The position numbers and the translations under genes were made by a program. 64,000 bases of DNA from Streptomyces sp. NBC_01317 (lineage in GTDB: Bacteria > Actinomycetota > Actinomycetes > Streptomycetales > Streptomycetaceae), in NCBI RefSeq assembly GCF_035961655.1, contig NZ_CP108393.1, positions 6,309,001-6,373,000 on the forward strand, in the 5' to 3' direction. Within the stretch, counting starts at the first letter, position 1. The number at the start of each line of letters is the position of its first letter. Shown piece by piece: positions 7,494-59,180 of this stretch. The notes under the pieces were generated by a model. It saw nothing but the letters and a program-made list of their open reading frames with translations, ran no database searches and was not told where the DNA came from.

Positions 7494-7523
7494 GCTTCTC
7501 TCCTCAGAAAGGTGCGGACCGGC

Positions 7524-10430
7524 GTGGCCGACCGTCTCATCGTCCGTGGCGCGCGCGAGCACAATCTCAAGAACGTCTCGCTCGACCTCCCCCGTGACTC
7601 CCTCATCGTCTTCACCGGGCTCTCCGGGTCGGGCAAGTCCTCCCTCGCGTTCGACACGATCTTCGCCGAGGGGCAGCGCCGGTACGTGGAGTCGCTGTCC
7701 TCGTACGCCCGGCAGTTCCTCGGTCAGATGGACAAGCCGGACGTCGACTTCATCGAGGGGCTGTCCCCGGCCGTCTCGATCGACCAGAAGTCGACCTCGC
7801 GCAACCCGCGCTCGACGGTCGGCACGATCACCGAGGTGTACGACTACCTCCGGCTGCTCTTCGCCCGGATCGGGAAGCCGCACTGCCCCGAGTGCGGCCG
7901 GCCGATCTCCCGCCAGTCGCCGCAGGCCATCGTGGACCGCGTCCTGGAGCTGCCCGAGGGCAGCCGCTTCCAGGTCCTCTCGCCGCTCGTCCGCGAGCGC
8001 AAGGGCGAGTTCGTGGACCTCTTCGCCGATCTCCAGACGAAGGGGTACAGCCGCGCGCGGGTCGACGGCCGGACGATCCAGCTCACCGAGCCCCCCACGC
8101 TCAAGAAGCAGGAGAAGCACACCATCGAGGTGGTCGTCGACCGCCTCACGGTGAAGGACAGCGCCAAGCGCCGGCTGACCGACTCGGTCGAGACCGCGCT
8201 GGGCCTCTCCGGCGGCATGGTCGTGCTCGACTTCGTGGACCTCCCCGAGGACGACCCCGAGCGCGAGCGGATGTTCTCCGAGCACCTCTACTGCCCGTAC
8301 GACGACCTGTCCTTCGAGGAGCTGGAGCCCCGCTCCTTCTCCTTCAACTCGCCCTTCGGCGCGTGCCCCGAGTGCAGCGGCATCGGTACGCGCATGGAGG
8401 TCGACCCGGAGCTGATCGTCCCGGACGAGGACAAGTCCCTGGACGAGGGCGCGATCCACCCCTGGTCCCACGGCCACACCAAGGAGTACTTCGGCCGGCT
8501 GATCGGCGGGCTCGCGCAGGCCCTCGGCTTCCGTACGGACATCCCGTGGGCCGGGCTGCCCGCGCGCGCCAAGAAGGCCCTGCTGTACGGCCACAAGACG
8601 CAGGTCGAGGTCCGGTACCGGAACAGGTACGGGCGGGAGCGCGCGTACACCACCCCCGCCTTCGAGGGCGCGGTCTCCTTCGTCAAGCGGCGGCACAGCG
8701 AGTCCGAGACGGACTCCAGCAGGGAGCGCTTCGAGGGGTACATGCGCGAGGTGCCCTGCCCGACCTGTGAGGGCACGCGCCTCAAGCCGATCGTCCTCGC
8801 GGTCACGGTCATGGACAAGTCCATCGCCGACATCGCGGCGCTGTCGATCAGCGACTGCGCCGAGTTCCTGGGCCGCCTCAAGCTGAACGCGCGCGACAAG
8901 AAGATCGCCGAGCGGGTGCTCAAGGAGGTCAACGAACGGCTGCGGTTCCTGGTCGACGTCGGCCTGGACTACCTGTCGCTGAACCGCGCGGCGGGCACCC
9001 TGTCCGGCGGCGAGGCCCAGCGCATCCGGCTCGCCACCCAGATCGGCTCCGGCCTGGTCGGGGTGCTCTACGTCCTGGACGAGCCCTCCATCGGCCTCCA
9101 CCAGCGGGACAACCACCGGCTGATCGAGACCCTGGTCCGGCTGCGGGACATGGGCAACACCCTGATCGTCGTGGAACACGACGAGGACACCATCAAGGTC
9201 GCCGACTGGGTGGTCGACATCGGCCCGGGGGCCGGCGAGCACGGCGGGAAGGTGGTGCACTCGGGGCCGTTGAAGGGGCTGCTGACCAACAAGGAGTCGC
9301 TGACCGGCCAGTACCTGTCCGGGAAGCGGTCCATCCCCACCCCGGAGATCCGGCGGCCCGTGGACGGCAGCCGGCAGCTCACGGTGCAGGGCGCCCGCGA
9401 GAACAACCTCCAGGACATCGACGTGTCCTTCCCGCTGGGCGTGCTCACGGCCGTCACCGGGGTCTCGGGCTCCGGGAAGTCGACCCTGGTCAACGACATC
9501 CTCTACACCCACCTGGCCCGGGAGCTGAACGGCGCGAAGTCCGTGCCCGGGCGGCACACCCGGGTCGACGGCGACGACCTGGTCGACAAGGTCGTCCACG
9601 TCGACCAGTCGCCCATCGGCCGCACGCCCCGGTCCAACCCGGCCACGTACACCGGCGTCTTCGACCACGTCCGCAAGCTCTTCGCGGACACGATGGAGGC
9701 GAAGGTCCGCGGCTATCTCCAAGGGCGCTTCTCCTTCAACGTGAAGGGCGGCCGCTGCGAGAACTGCTCCGGCGACGGCACGATCAAGATCGAGATGAAC
9801 TTCCTGCCGGACGTGTACGTCCCCTGCGAGGTCTGCCACGGGGCGCGCTACAACCGGGAGACGCTGGAGGTCCACTACAAGGGCAAGTCCATCGCCGAGG
9901 TCCTCGACATGCCGATCGAGGAGGCGCTGGACTTCTTCGAGGCGGTCCCGGCGATCTCGCGCCACCTCAGGACGCTCAACGAGGTGGGCCTCGGGTATGT
10001 CCGCCTGGGCCAGTCCGCGCCGACCCTCTCGGGCGGCGAGGCGCAGCGCGTCAAGCTCTCCAGCGAGCTCCAGAAGCGCTCCACGGGCCGCACGGTCTAC
10101 GTCCTGGACGAGCCGACGACCGGGCTGCACTTCGAGGACATCAGCAAGCTGATCAAGGTGCTGTCCGGGCTGGTCGACAAGGGCAACACGGTGATCGTGA
10201 TCGAGCACAACCTGGACGTCATCAAGACGGCGGACTGGGTGATCGACATGGGCCCGGAGGGCGGGAACGGAGGCGGTCTGGTGGTCGCGGAGGGGACGCC
10301 GGAGCGGGTGGCGGGGGAGGCGTCGAGCCACACGGGCAAGTTCCTCCGCGAGATCCTTGACCCGAACCAAATCCTTGACGCGGCGCCCAAGAAGCCGGCG
10401 CGCCGCATCCGTAAGCCCGCCTCTCGCTGA
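7524..10430 (+). CDS. uvrA: Excinuclease ABC subunit A
   Basis: A 968-residue damage-recognition ATPase of nucleotide excision repair. It has two ABC modules: Walker [14 protein letters not shown] near residue 35 and [13 protein letters not shown] in the second half, each with its signature ([12 protein letters not shown] and [12 protein letters not shown]) and Walker B ([20 protein letters not shown]). Zinc-module cysteines are visible at [19 protein letters not shown] and CEVCHG. The frame is open from GTG 7512, but GTG 7524 gives [14 protein letters not shown], the usual start, with GAAAGG about 10 bases upstream. The product loads UvrB onto lesions and is released before UvrC incises. The length is normal and all motifs are intact. 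Confidence 0.97.
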
Positions 10431-10487
10431 CCGCGCCGCGGTCACGGTGTCCTCAATCGCCGGACGGGCTGGGTTTGTCGTGGTGGC

Positions 10488-10629
10488 GGGGGGTGGGGCC
10501 TGCGGAGGTACGTATGTCCGGACTGCATGTTTTACGGCGCCTCAGGGACTCGTTTAGCTCACCGGGGCCATGCGCCACAAAACACGCTTTACGTCCGGAC
10601 ACACGCACCTCCTCCGACCCCACCCCCCT
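10488..10629. repeat. Long imperfect hairpin H1, copy A
   Basis: GGGGTGGGGCCTGCGGAGG-type sequence and TGTCCGGACTGCATGTTTT on the left pair imperfectly with the right arm (ACGTCCGGACA, then CACCTCCTCCGACCCCACC). The unpaired centre is about 30 bases. About 140 bases match the copy at 57519-57660 almost base for base, with the differences concentrated in the loop. Confidence 0.8.
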
Positions 10630-10905
10630 CACGCCGAGGGTGAGCCGAACGACCCCGCCGGCCCGGGGAGCCTCGCCTCCGCCCGGTGCTCGGGCGCGGC
10701 TTACCGATGTCCTCAATCGCCGGACGGGCTGGAGTGTGCCCCTGCGCGGTGCGCGGGTGGCGGTTACTGCGTCCTCAATCGCCGGACGGGCTTGGGTTGC
10801 GTCCGGGTGGTGCCGTCGGTGCGGGTCAAGGATGTCCTCAAGCGCCGGACAGGCTTAAAGACCGGAGCGGGCCGGGTTGTTTTGGCGCGGGCGTGGAAGG
10901 GGGAC

Positions 10906-11020
10906 GGGCAGGGGTCGTGTCCGGAACGTAGAGCGTGTTTTGTGTCGCGTGACTACCGGTAAACCAAACAAGACCCCGAACGCGACGTAAAACATGCAGT
11001 GCAGGACACGACCCCTGCCC
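10906..11020. repeat. Long hairpin H2 with 17-base perfect terminal inverted repeats, copy A
   Basis: GGGCAGGGGTCGTGTCC (10906-10922) is exactly complementary to 11004-11020. Inside, GAGCGTGTTTTGTGTCGCG pairs imperfectly with CGCGACGTAAAACATGC. Read on the other strand the core closely resembles H1. The same 115-base element is at 57734-57848. Confidence 0.85.
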
Positions 11021-11197
11021 GGCCCCCGGCAACAACCCGCGCATACGCAACCGGCCCGCAGCGGGCACAACCAAGCCCGTCCGGCGATTGAGGACAACAC
11101 GAACCGCAACCCGGTCACCCAGACGCGCGGCCCACCGGCCCCAGAACGCCCGTCCGGCGCCTGAGGACAAGCAGTAAGCGCGACCAAAAACCGGGCG

Positions 11198-12109
11198 CTA
11201 CGCGCCAGCGCGTCCGCACGCCTCCGCCGCCGCCTGCGACGCGAAGTCGAGGACCTCGCGCCAACCCGAGGCCCCCAACGCCACCAGCCCCGGAGGGGAC
11301 AACGCATCACGGGCAGCAAGCGCGTGCAACACCGCCGCGTTCACCGCGTCACCCGCCCCGATCGTGTCCACCACGGACACCGCCGCCGCCGGCACCGACA
11401 CCTCCGTGCCGTCCGCCGTCCACACGGTCGACCCCTCCGCGCCGCGCGTCAGTACCACCGCCGCCGGCCCCCGCGCCGTCCACTCCGCCGGGACGCCGCC
11501 CAGCCACGCCGCGTCGTCCTGGGAGAGCTTCAGCAGCGTGACGGACGGCAGCCAGCCGGTGAACCGGGTCCGGTACGCGTCGGGGTCCGGGATCACCCCC
11601 GGCCGGATGTTCGGGTCGAGCAGCGTGAAGACCCCGCGCGCAGACTCCCGCCGCAGCAGCGCCTCGTACGCGCTCGCGCCCGGCTCCAGCACCAGTGAGC
11701 ACGTGCCCAGGGCAAGAGCCCGGACCTCGGGCGGCAGCGCGTGCGGCAGTTCGAACAACCGGTCGGCGCTGCCCTCCGCGTAGAAGCCGTAGCCCGCGGA
11801 CCCGTCCGGGCCGAGCGCCGCGACGGCGAGGGTCGTGGGCTCGTGGCCCCGCTGCACCAGGGACGTGTCGACGCCCGACGACCTCAGCCCCTCCATCAGC
11901 ATGTCCCCGAAGACGTCCGTCGAGATCCGGGAGCAGAAGGCCGCGGGCGACCCGAGCCGCCCGAGCGCGACGGCCGTGTTGAACGGCCCGCCACCGAGGC
12001 GCGGCAGCAGCGCCGTCGGCGCGGTGCGGTCCGTACGGTCCCCGGCGGCAGCAACGGCGGCGTGCTGCGGCACCAGGTCGATCAGGGCTTCTCCGGCGAC
12101 GACGATCAC
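11198..12109 (-). CDS. PfkB family carbohydrate kinase
   Basis: A 303-residue ribokinase/PfkB-family sugar kinase, probably acting on a sugar such as fructose. It starts VIVVAGEALIDLVP, has the first signature GGGPFNTAVALGRLGSP and ends with the second, DTIGAGDAVNAAVL, whose Asp is the catalytic base and whose GAGD forms the anion hole. The frame runs open to 12409, but GTG 12107-12109 gives the family start; no good Shine-Dalgarno is visible there, so the start is less certain. It is monocistronic, convergent with uvrA across the composite repeat and divergent from the Rieske gene. The substrate cannot be fixed from sequence. Confidence 0.87.
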   Translation of the reverse strand: MIVVAGEALIDLVPQHAAVAAAGDRTDRTAPTALLPRLGGGPFNTAVALGRLGSPAAFCSRISTDVFGDMLMEGLRSSGVDTSLVQRGHEPTTLAVAALGPDGSAGYGFYAEGSADRLFELPHALPPEVRALALGTCSLVLEPGASAYEALLRRESARGVFTLLDPNIRPGVIPDPDAYRTRFTGWLPSVTLLKLSQDDAAWLGGVPAEWTARGPAAVVLTRGAEGSTVWTADGTEVSVPAAAVSVVDTIGAGDAVNAAVLHALAARDALSPPGLVALGASGWREVLDFASQAAAEACGRAGA

Positions 12110-57440: not shown

Positions 57441-57518
57441 TCTTTGCCTTTCGCCCGGTGACCGGTTGCGCTTACTGATGTCCTCAATCGCCGGACGGGC
57501 TGGGTTTGTCGTGGTGGC

Positions 57519-57660
57519 GGGGGGTGGGGCCTGCGGAGGTACGTATGTCCGGACTGCATGTTTTACGGCGCCTCAGGGACTTGTTTGGTTCACCGGTAGT
57601 CATGCGCCACAAAACACGCTTTACGTCCGGACACACGCACCTCCTCCGACCCCACCCCCC
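57519..57660. repeat. Long imperfect hairpin H1, copy B
   Basis: Differs from 10488-10629 only in the loop (GTTTGGTTCACCGGTAGT here) by a few substitutions and a one-base indel. The loop here is closer to that of H2 read on the other strand. Confidence 0.8.
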
Positions 57661-57733
57661 TCACGCCGCCGGGAACGTGAACGACCCCCCGCCTGGGGTG
57701 GGCCGGGTAGTGAGGCGGGCGTGGAAGGGGGAC

Positions 57734-57848
57734 GGGCAGGGGTCGTGTCCGGAACGTAGAGCGTGTTTTGTGTCGCGTGGCTACCGGTGAACTGAACAAG
57801 GTCCCGAACGCGACGTAAAACATGCAGTGCAGGACACGACCCCTGCCC
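57734..57848. repeat. Long hairpin H2 with 17-base terminal inverted repeats, copy B
   Basis: GGGCAGGGGTCGTGTCC at 57734-57750 is perfectly complementary to 57832-57848. The 115-base length equals copy A. Confidence 0.85.
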
Positions 57849-57965
57849 GGCCCCCGGCGACAACCCGCACCCAGGCCACCGGGCCGCAGCGGGCACAATC
57901 AAGCCCGTCCGGCGATTGAGGACAATCAGTAACCCGCACCCGAGCGCACCGGGCAGACGCACCAA

Positions 57966-59180
57966 TCAAGCCCGTCCGGCGATTGAGGACAACACGGACA
58001 AGGCCGAGGACACCGCCGCGAGGTCCTCCGCGGACGCCAGCCCCCCGTGGTACAGGCGAAGCTCCGTCGCGCCCAAGGTCAGCGCCAGCGAAGCGTCCCG
58101 CTCCAACGACCCCGGCGCGCCCCCCATCCCGCTCACGACAGTGAAGTTCGCCGCCAGTACGGACGACCCCACGGCGTGGGGCGTGAACGCCGGGAGCAAG
58201 CGGGCCGCCGCACCGCCCGTGCACGGCAGGACCACCCCGTCCGCCACGCCCAGGACGTGCGCCGGGTCCACCCCGGCGTTCGCGCCCGTGTGGTACGGGA
58301 CGGGATCCGCGTGCAGCAGCACCTGGAAGTCCGGGCGCCCCGCGGCCCGAGCGGCCGCCCGCACCGCCGCGACCGCCGACTCCTGGAGCGTACGGGCCAC
58401 TCCGCCACGCCACGCGAAGGTGACGGCCGCCAGCTCCGCGCCGAGGAGCTTTTCGATGCCCGCCACACCGGCCTCGGTGGCGCCCACAACAGAACCGGCC
58501 CACACGGGCCGAAGCGCCCCCCGCACCGCCGCCGCCAGGGCCTCCGGCGAAACGCCCGACTCCGCGTACCCCGCCCCGCACACGTCGCAGAAGCACAGCG
58601 ACATCAGGTACTGCGCCGCCTCGTCCAGGCCGACGCCCCCGATCTTGTCGTGCGCGTGCAGATGCGCCAGCCCGTACCACCCGCACGACTCCAGCTCCGT
58701 ACCGCCCGCCCCGGGCCGTACCGCCGCCTCCGCCGCCAGCGCGACCAGGTACGCCGCGACGGCGGGCCGCGCGATGCAGGGCGCCCAGGGGTAGCGGTCC
58801 CCGTACGCGTTGACCACGGACGTGTCGGGACGCTCCGCGCCCAGGCGGGAGTTGTGCGCGAGGACCACCCAACTGTGCACCTCCAGCCCCGCGTCGGCGA
58901 GCGCCGCCGCCGCCTCGCCGTACGCGTCGCCGGGCGCCCAGGCCCCCGCGGCGTACGGCCGCAGCTCGTGCCCCGCCCAGCGGGCCTCGTCCACGGGGTA
59001 GAGGACCGAGGCGTGTTCGGCCGTGACGATCCGGTGGCGCGGGTGGCGCGGGGTCAGCGCGCGGGTGGAGTGGTACGCGGAGGCCAGCGTGACCTGCTGG
59101 ACGCCGAGGTCCGCGATCCGGCGTGCGGCGTCCGGGTCGCCCACCACGTCCCAGGGGTAGAGGAACACGGAGGTCTTCAC
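57966..59180 (-). CDS. Uncharacterised glycoside-hydrolase-like protein in uronate cluster
   Basis: A 404-residue cytoplasmic protein. It resembles putative TIM-barrel glycosidases: FLYPWDVVGDPDAARRIADL, ASAYHSTRALTPRHPRHRI, then VHSWVVLAHNSRLG, ESCGWYGLAHLHAHDKIG and a cysteine cluster LCFCDVCGAGY like that in several glycoside-hydrolase-like families. The catalytic acids are not obvious. GTG 59180 overlaps the dehydratase stop by 4 bases, so the two are coupled. Its last residues, VLSSIAGRA, and the stop are encoded by the composite repeat, meaning the natural C-terminus was probably replaced. A role in releasing or preparing uronates is inference. Confidence 0.6.
   Translation of the reverse strand: MKTSVFLYPWDVVGDPDAARRIADLGVQQVTLASAYHSTRALTPRHPRHRIVTAEHASVLYPVDEARWAGHELRPYAAGAWAPGDAYGEAAAALADAGLEVHSWVVLAHNSRLGAERPDTSVVNAYGDRYPWAPCIARPAVAAYLVALAAEAAVRPGAGGTELESCGWYGLAHLHAHDKIGGVGLDEAAQYLMSLCFCDVCGAGYAESGVSPEALAAAVRGALRPVWAGSVVGATEAGVAGIEKLLGAELAAVTFAWRGGVARTLQESAVAAVRAAARAAGRPDFQVLLHADPVPYHTGANAGVDPAHVLGVADGVVLPCTGGAAARLLPAFTPHAVGSSVLAANFTVVSGMGGAPGSLERDASLALTLGATELRLYHGGLASAEDLAAVSSALSVLSSIAGRA

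Follow-up and report, generated by a model that had tools for sequence, protein, structure and literature searches.

The convergent junction between uvrA and a sugar kinase gene

The window analysed here is a stretch of 64,000 nucleotides from the genome of Streptomyces sp. NBC_01317. The element lies in a 767-nt intergenic gap. On its left, uvrA occupies positions 7512-10430 on the plus strand (gene call; NCBIfam equivalog UvrA, 1573.7 bits), and on its right a gene for a PfkB-family sugar kinase occupies positions 11198-12109 on the minus strand (Pfam PF00294, 134 bits). The 3' ends of both genes face the element. The gap contains six copies of a 21-nt repeat, R (TCCTCAATCGCCGGACGGGCT), and two long hairpins, H1 and H2. 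The first copy of R is found on the plus strand at 10450-10470, 19 nt past the uvrA stop, and is followed by H1 (10488-10628, model core 10504-10612), for which the minus strand is the best-folding one. Three inner copies of R on the plus strand are located at 10710-10730, at 10772-10792 (62 bp past the preceding copy) and, with two mismatches, at 10835-10855 (63 bp past the preceding copy). H2 (10897-11030, model core 10908-11018) folds best as the plus strand. To its right two copies of R lie on the minus strand, at 11074-11094 and at 11147-11167; the latter, outermost copy has three mismatches and is 30 nt from the kinase stop.

The 20-base core of R, with up to three mismatches, has nine matches in the window compared with 0.05 expected from shuffled sequences. 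The folding energy of positions 10430-11180 has a z-value of -9.0 and is equalled by none of 20 shuffles. For H2 alone (plus strand) and for H1 (minus strand) the z-values are -9.5 and -11.6, respectively, and none of 200 shuffles equals either.

A first-pass annotation of this DNA had described a repeat composite at a convergent junction, and both the composite and the face-to-face arrangement of UvrA (plus) and the PfkB kinase (minus) are real. Its description of H1 and H2 as inverted relatives is confirmed by inverted-repeat pairs in this copy, hereafter copy A. The 17-base terminal inverted repeats ascribed to H2 are indeed exact arms, one base longer than described (18 bases), but they form the outer stem of a single hairpin. 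The short repeats were said to point outwards; the copies of R instead read inwards from both genes, in the sense direction of each ending gene.

At the kinase stop codon (11194-11211, minus strand) there is also a small stem followed by a T run, possibly an ordinary terminator outside the composite. A scan for stems with T runs finds two overlapping sites there, with 0.7 expected.

The second copy in the window, copy B, spans 57481-57989 and consists of R, H1, H2 and two right-hand copies of R, without the inner copies. Its left R is located at 57481-57501 on the plus strand. The H1 core (57535-57644, minus strand) and the H2 core (57736-57846, plus strand) match the model with 99.2 and 102.8 bits, respectively, and the right-hand copies of R are found on the minus strand at 57902-57922 and 57969-57989. 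The outermost of these runs into the 3' end called for the right-hand gene, so that at 57966-57989 R may contribute to the coding sequence or stop region of that gene.

The repeat family in the genome

The whole genome (G000, one contig of 8,066,947 bases) was searched for the three components. R has 384 sites with up to two mismatches, 187 forward and 197 reverse, and a reversed control pattern has none. The family is not confined to the two copies of the window, a possibility raised beforehand, since 49 sites of H2 and 45 of H1 were found, and in none of these 94 does the searched core contain a mismatch. Model R1 gives 94 matches above 90 bits and eight below 46 bits in this genome. The hairpins fall into 51 places, of which 43 have both, six have H2 only and two H1 only.

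H1 and H2 are mutually inverted in all 43 places that have both, and the order there is R+, H1, zero to four further R+, H2, R-. In the 40 loci mapped, the first R+ is separated from H1 by 17-18 nt, and H1 is followed, usually after about 80 nt, by zero to four R+. The distance from the last R+ to H2 is mostly about 24, 41 or 63 nt, and that from H2 to R- is 42-44 nt. An extra R is often present on either outer side of the composite in these loci. Growth by copying of the short unit, suggested by the first-pass annotation, fits the pitch of R: among the 110 R-R steps shorter than 80 bp, 95 measure 61-68 bp and 65 measure 62-64 bp. A further 38 steps measure 258-263 bp, a length that fits R plus H1.

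The arms of the hairpins are near-invariant across 37 copies of H1 and 42 of H2. The apical loops are of many types, with segments common to H1 and H2. In 93 of the 94 copies of this genome the loops look combinatorial, with a few left, middle and right segments recombined in both hairpins, as if the segments had been shuffled by recombination. Exchange of loops inside one composite was tested and left no sign: with 93 of the 94 loops parsed, the similarity between H1 and H2 loops is 0.655 within composites (n=43) and 0.674 between them (n=2111).

The genes beside the copies in this genome are mutually unrelated at the chosen cut-off, with the exception of one pair. A few types of sequence recur beyond the outermost R, with TTACTGATTG, GCCTGGCGGCCGTGCTTTTG or GTTCGTGTTG preceding R; the R unit therefore seems to have subfamilies. 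A published primer for the C-terminus of adpA (SCO2792; PMC10771470) contains GAACGCCGGACGGGCTG, which is near R, hinting that R-like repeats may follow well-studied genes too.

Fold, covariation and folding strand

H1 and H2 are one structured element. The core family is a non-coding hairpin of about 110-150 nt, consisting of an outer stem, an internal loop, an inner stem and a variable apical loop. The internal loop is 5x1, and its 5' side reads GUARA in most of the sequences; this GTARA part of the loop has given way to other sequence in the families G378/G368/G068 and G384. The inner stem has 16 bp with nearly fixed G·U wobbles, and the model comprises 33 pairs in two helices.

In a MAFFT alignment of 13 sequences, which was not fitted to the model, 94.1% of the cells are paired and both sides change in 14 of the 33 pairs, a result reached by none of 500 shuffles; structures slid along this alignment pair only 34-48%. 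In 74 hairpins (65 distinct) aligned by fitting to the model, 95.3% of the cells are paired, double changes occur in 20 of the 33 pairs, again with none of 500 shuffles comparable, and slid structures pair 32-49%; the shuffles of neither alignment allow fully for relatedness.

On the modelled strand there are 235 G·U against 10 A·C pairs, and three inner wobbles contribute 167 of these G·U. The strand was picked by model score, so that the inner wobbles are partly circular as evidence and those of the outer stem, 64 G·U and no A·C, are less so. A pair of wobbles persists in 64 of the 65 distinct rows, including the G384 family despite its changed neighbouring pairs. From the outer-stem counts, one strand seems to be selected to fold. 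This points to RNA or single-stranded DNA as the folded molecule, and not only to a double-stranded site. With RNA and DNA parameters alike, the best-folding strand is plus for H2 and minus for H1, so the two hairpins of the composite point outwards. The same order, minus and then plus, is seen in the close hairpin pairs examined elsewhere (G249 and G293; G378, G368 and G068).

Two variants deserve mention. L180, L183 and L194 (G242, G309) have an outer stem and some of the sequence bordering the internal loop but no inner stem, and are perhaps shortened derivatives. In G384, outward hairpins of equal score are set 2.0 kb and 1.2 kb apart (L276:4021-6180 and L277:4022-5343), compared with the usual distance of about 0.2-0.5 kb. 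The sequence between them might be an autonomous or a composite form, and the hairpins may enclose a transposase gene.

Position relative to genes

Genes were called by our own codon-usage caller, trained on this genome and applied to the other genomes too. The control consists of 264 junctions in 20 stretches chosen by coordinate (53 convergent, 49 divergent, 162 co-directional). The 51 places of the own genome comprise 27 convergent, 2 divergent and 22 co-directional junctions. In the tabulation of gene directions that the first-pass annotation had proposed as a check, the flanking genes are convergent beyond chance (27/51 against 53/264 controls, Fisher p = 5e-6), and divergent junctions are depleted (2/51 against 49/264, p = 0.007). 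The strong model matches in 15 other genomes give 63 places, 27 convergent (p = 3e-4), 3 divergent (p = 0.006) and 33 co-directional; these include orthologous junctions and are not independent. They derive from 71 of 129 model matches, those on the better-scoring strand, the other 58 being the same hairpins on the opposite strand.

The element is closely fitted to the gene ends. At the 27 convergent sites it begins 15-60 nt past the stop codon at 41 of the 54 gene ends, the gap is 3-90 nt at 49 of them, and the composite occupies nearly the whole space between both stop codons. The copies of R at composites are plus on the left and minus on the right, which is sense to the gene ending into the composite. 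Clusters of R without a hairpin, for some of which the gene calls are doubtful, were also assigned by the nearest called gene. In targeted stretches (n=16) eight are convergent, six co-directional and two divergent, and random stretches contain three more, two convergent and one divergent.

The orientation of the fold is less regular. Relative to the nearest ending gene, the best-folding strand of 52 single hairpins is the antisense one 35 times and the sense one 17 times; the proposal that it is regularly the mRNA strand is not supported. The antisense cases amount to 15 of 18 in the R-linked genomes G098, G281 and G302, and to 20 of 34 elsewhere. At co-directional junctions the best-folding strand is sense in 12 cases and antisense in 17.

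The same junctions in relatives

The uvrA/kinase junction is convergent by gene call in 16 of 18 relatives, and in two of the 16 the called gap is 0; the uvrA neighbour is confirmed by alignment in 12 of the 18 and rests on gene calls in the remainder. Neither R nor H is present at this junction in any of the 16 relatives with a gap (14 convergent, 2 co-directional). A simpler hairpin is common there. Among the 14 convergent relatives with a gap of at least 30 nt, a hairpin of at least 8 bp is found in 12, compared with 3.5 expected from shuffles, and one of at least 12 bp in nine, compared with 0.15.

The second junction compared is that of a gene for 282 amino acids facing an SRP54-family gene, which is occupied in the own genome (L100, G000). 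R is absent at this junction in all 24 relatives, and loose core matches (L427, L442) are unsupported, as the model found nothing in G019 and G010. The junction is convergent in 23 of the 24, with a gap below 30 nt in eight of these 23. In the 15 convergent relatives with a gap of at least 30 nt, nine have a hairpin of at least 8 bp (4.4 expected) and five one of at least 12 bp (0.12 expected). Since eight of 23 gaps are short and only nine of 15 longer ones have a hairpin, not every such junction needs one.

Other genomes carry the element at shared places. G249 (L246) has a hairpin pair at the same SRP54-family junction as the own genome. In four genomes the hairpin is found at an MFS/ABC-transporter gene pair, with one orientation in G346 and G292 and the opposite one in G323 and G167. 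Five genomes have it at a pair of cobalamin genes, which encode DBI_PRT and TP_methylase domains. These junction histories indicate that the element is gained or lost, that it arrives repeatedly at similar sites and that it can persist there.

Distribution

As a DNA query, with two candidates scored per genome, H2 has matches in 15 of 392 genomes of the genus, the own included. The covariance model, with nine candidates scored per genome (a count of nine meaning at least nine), has matches in 73 of these 392, again including the own. In 391 genomes drawn from the order the model likewise matches 73, the own included; these belong to three of ten genera, all of one family. The two genera other than Streptomyces are weaker, one reaching E = 1.5e-8 and the other only 2.4e-4. 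Its dispersal thus extends beyond Streptomyces to at least one further genus of Streptomycetaceae. A search with the core pattern gave at least 80 loci, and among the matches listed all were titled Streptomyces. Carriers of the core include S. exfoliatus, S. gardneri, S. narbonensis and S. tanashiensis, near relatives of S. venezuelae. R is spread more widely: a query of R, H1 and H2 together matched 29 of 61 genomes (the own and relatives), and the matches outside the own genome lie mostly in its R-containing part.

No Rfam family matches in the window at the gathering score; when matches are taken by E-value, the sole families to appear are microRNAs, with scores far short of their cut-offs. 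The region 10860-11096 has no match in plasmids and phages, and the core pattern has no exact match in a viral contig collection. Listings of the open-access literature yielded no account of R or H for Streptomyces, which is not to say that none has been published.

Possible function and origin

The data above show the family, its layout, its fold, its site bias and its absence from relatives at two junctions, and the element is best read as BIME/ERIC-like and non-autonomous. We propose, with a probability of about one half, that copy A belongs to a dispersed mosaic of the BIME type, made up of two repeat families, and that this mosaic acts as a bidirectional 3'-end module. The strongest argument for such a two-way module is that the composites fill the space from stop to stop and, at uvrA, take the place of the simple hairpin of the relatives. 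Each converging transcript would meet a sense R first, then the long GC-rich hairpins, and then an antisense R, which could pair with the first. The RNA polymerase would be halted or the 3' end protected, so that the module may serve in termination or in stabilisation, and the two genes would be insulated. At a converging pair the arrangement would also have a polarity, with each transcript crossing the poorly folding hairpin first and the well-folding one second.

A stable GC-rich hairpin following the stop codon, as in intrinsic terminators, is present. A U tract after the hairpins is not seen by eye; a scan whose loop limit of 8 excludes such long hairpins likewise gives no site at H1, H2 or R. 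Three observations weigh against the module: the same site bias is expected if selection removes insertions in promoters and genes, the stem with a T run is found at the kinase stop, and the folding strand is mostly antisense (35 of the 52 single hairpins).

The first-pass annotation had offered a mobile MITE-like unit or a dedicated two-way terminator. Each half of this proposal finds support and neither is proven. The two-way 3'-end role is favoured by the convergent enrichment, the divergent depletion, the stop-proximal starts and the relatives' hairpins above chance, and mobility by the dispersal, the patchiness and the lack of the element in relatives, whereas the anatomy of a classical MITE is so far not supported.

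The likeliest alternative, although we consider it rather unlikely, is a purely selfish mobile hairpin. An enzyme would recognise one strand folded as single-stranded DNA and copy it, insertions would survive only at promoter-free 3' ends, and any effect on transcription would be incidental. It is supported by a strand-specific fold that lacks a fixed sense orientation and by the opposite orientations at the MFS/ABC-transporter pair. Also consistent with it are the near-identity of the arms across mostly unrelated gene neighbourhoods of one genome, the patchy presence in the genus and the SRP54-family junction, occupied in G000 and G249 and without R or supported H in 24 relatives. The cobalamin-gene pair, which keeps the element in five genomes, fits function as well as age. 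The gene of the sole transposase sought, Y1_Tnp (RAYT), has no match in the own genome, and the same search is positive in five of 14 control genomes. By eye, no consistent target-site duplication is seen in the flanks.

An improbable alternative is a structured non-coding or protein-bound RNA with its own transcription, in which the internal loop and the wobbles form a binding site and which acts in cis or as a sponge. It would explain the near-invariant wobble pairs, the internal loop conserved across genomes with its compensated stems, and the folding strand that is often antisense to the nearest ending gene. However, no sigma-70-like promoter is found in 10400-11250, a scan that Streptomyces promoters may not fit, no known RNA family is recognised (the microRNA matches being far below cut-offs), and in G000 the copies flank genes that are for the most part unrelated. 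A role in DNA architecture is very unlikely. The element would then be a site at convergent ends, comparable to BIMEs, to which a topoisomerase or nucleoid protein binds, and the 63-bp pitch of six helical turns would place R on one DNA face. Such a role would suit the 62-64 bp steps and the convergent bias, but strand-specific wobbles are not expected of a double-stranded site, and the pitch may reflect no more than the size of a duplicated unit.

Returning to the bidirectional 3'-end module, its spread would proceed by copying of DNA. We tentatively consider it possible, at less than even odds, that this is a new Streptomycetaceae family of structured, dispersed elements that are recognised as a single strand and have a conserved internal loop and near-fixed wobbles. 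An enzyme other than RAYT would move them, and they would have joined with an oriented repeat to form two-way gene-end modules, the folding strand being often antisense to the nearest ending gene. The family offers about 50 natural replicates in one genome for studying how transcription ends at convergent genes, and might be a test case of a REP/BIME-like system without RAYT. It might also yield a bidirectional terminator part and a new family for RNA databases.

Comparison with known systems

The terminators of Streptomyces, which have no strong U tracts, are poorly understood. Term-seq has been published for seven Streptomyces species listed in PMC12207403. In the passages of the Term-seq studies drawn on here, Streptomyces terminators are long stable hairpins with few U residues, and for S. 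clavuligerus 3' ends of the bidirectional type are reported (PMC12207403; PMC8269248). The present hairpins are similar in being long, stable, placed after stop codons and poor in U. They differ in belonging to a repeated family with conserved sequence and fold, and these terminator passages mention no repeat family.

ERIC sequences are near 127 nt in length and are not known to have a partner. According to PMC10969869, ERIC, NEMIS and YPAL are imperfect intergenic palindromes of highly species-variable copy number, counted among MITEs, all of which resembles the present element. It differs in its host phylum, probably in its conserved core, and in being combined with a second oriented repeat in a fixed composite.

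The BIME and REP mosaics of Enterobacteria and Pseudomonas (PMC3733652; PMC2817692) are similar in having folded, high-copy short repeats of alternating orientation with linked motifs, mostly at convergent or co-directional genes and near 3' ends. The position of the present element, extragenic, downstream of genes and convergent or co-directional, is that of REP. In contrast, the REP sequences of those hosts are 20-40 bp long, with stems of 5-13 bp and a GTAG or CGTC tag, while here a core hairpin of more than 110 nt is ringed by another repeat. It is not a tagged palindrome of 20-40 bp, having 33 pairs in two helices and a GTARA loop that is replaced in some families. The main text of PMC3733652 contains none of the words Streptomyces, coelicolor and actinobacteri. 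REPINs with RAYT, according to PMC3116915, are inverted doublets that form hairpins, dispersed and non-autonomous, as is the present element; unlike them it resides in a genome without a Y1_Tnp gene, and membership in the REP/RAYT system was dropped for this reason. The element thus resembles BIME, REPIN and ERIC in position and style, yet its genome has no Y1 transposase, and its hairpin is far longer than REP and is not in Rfam.
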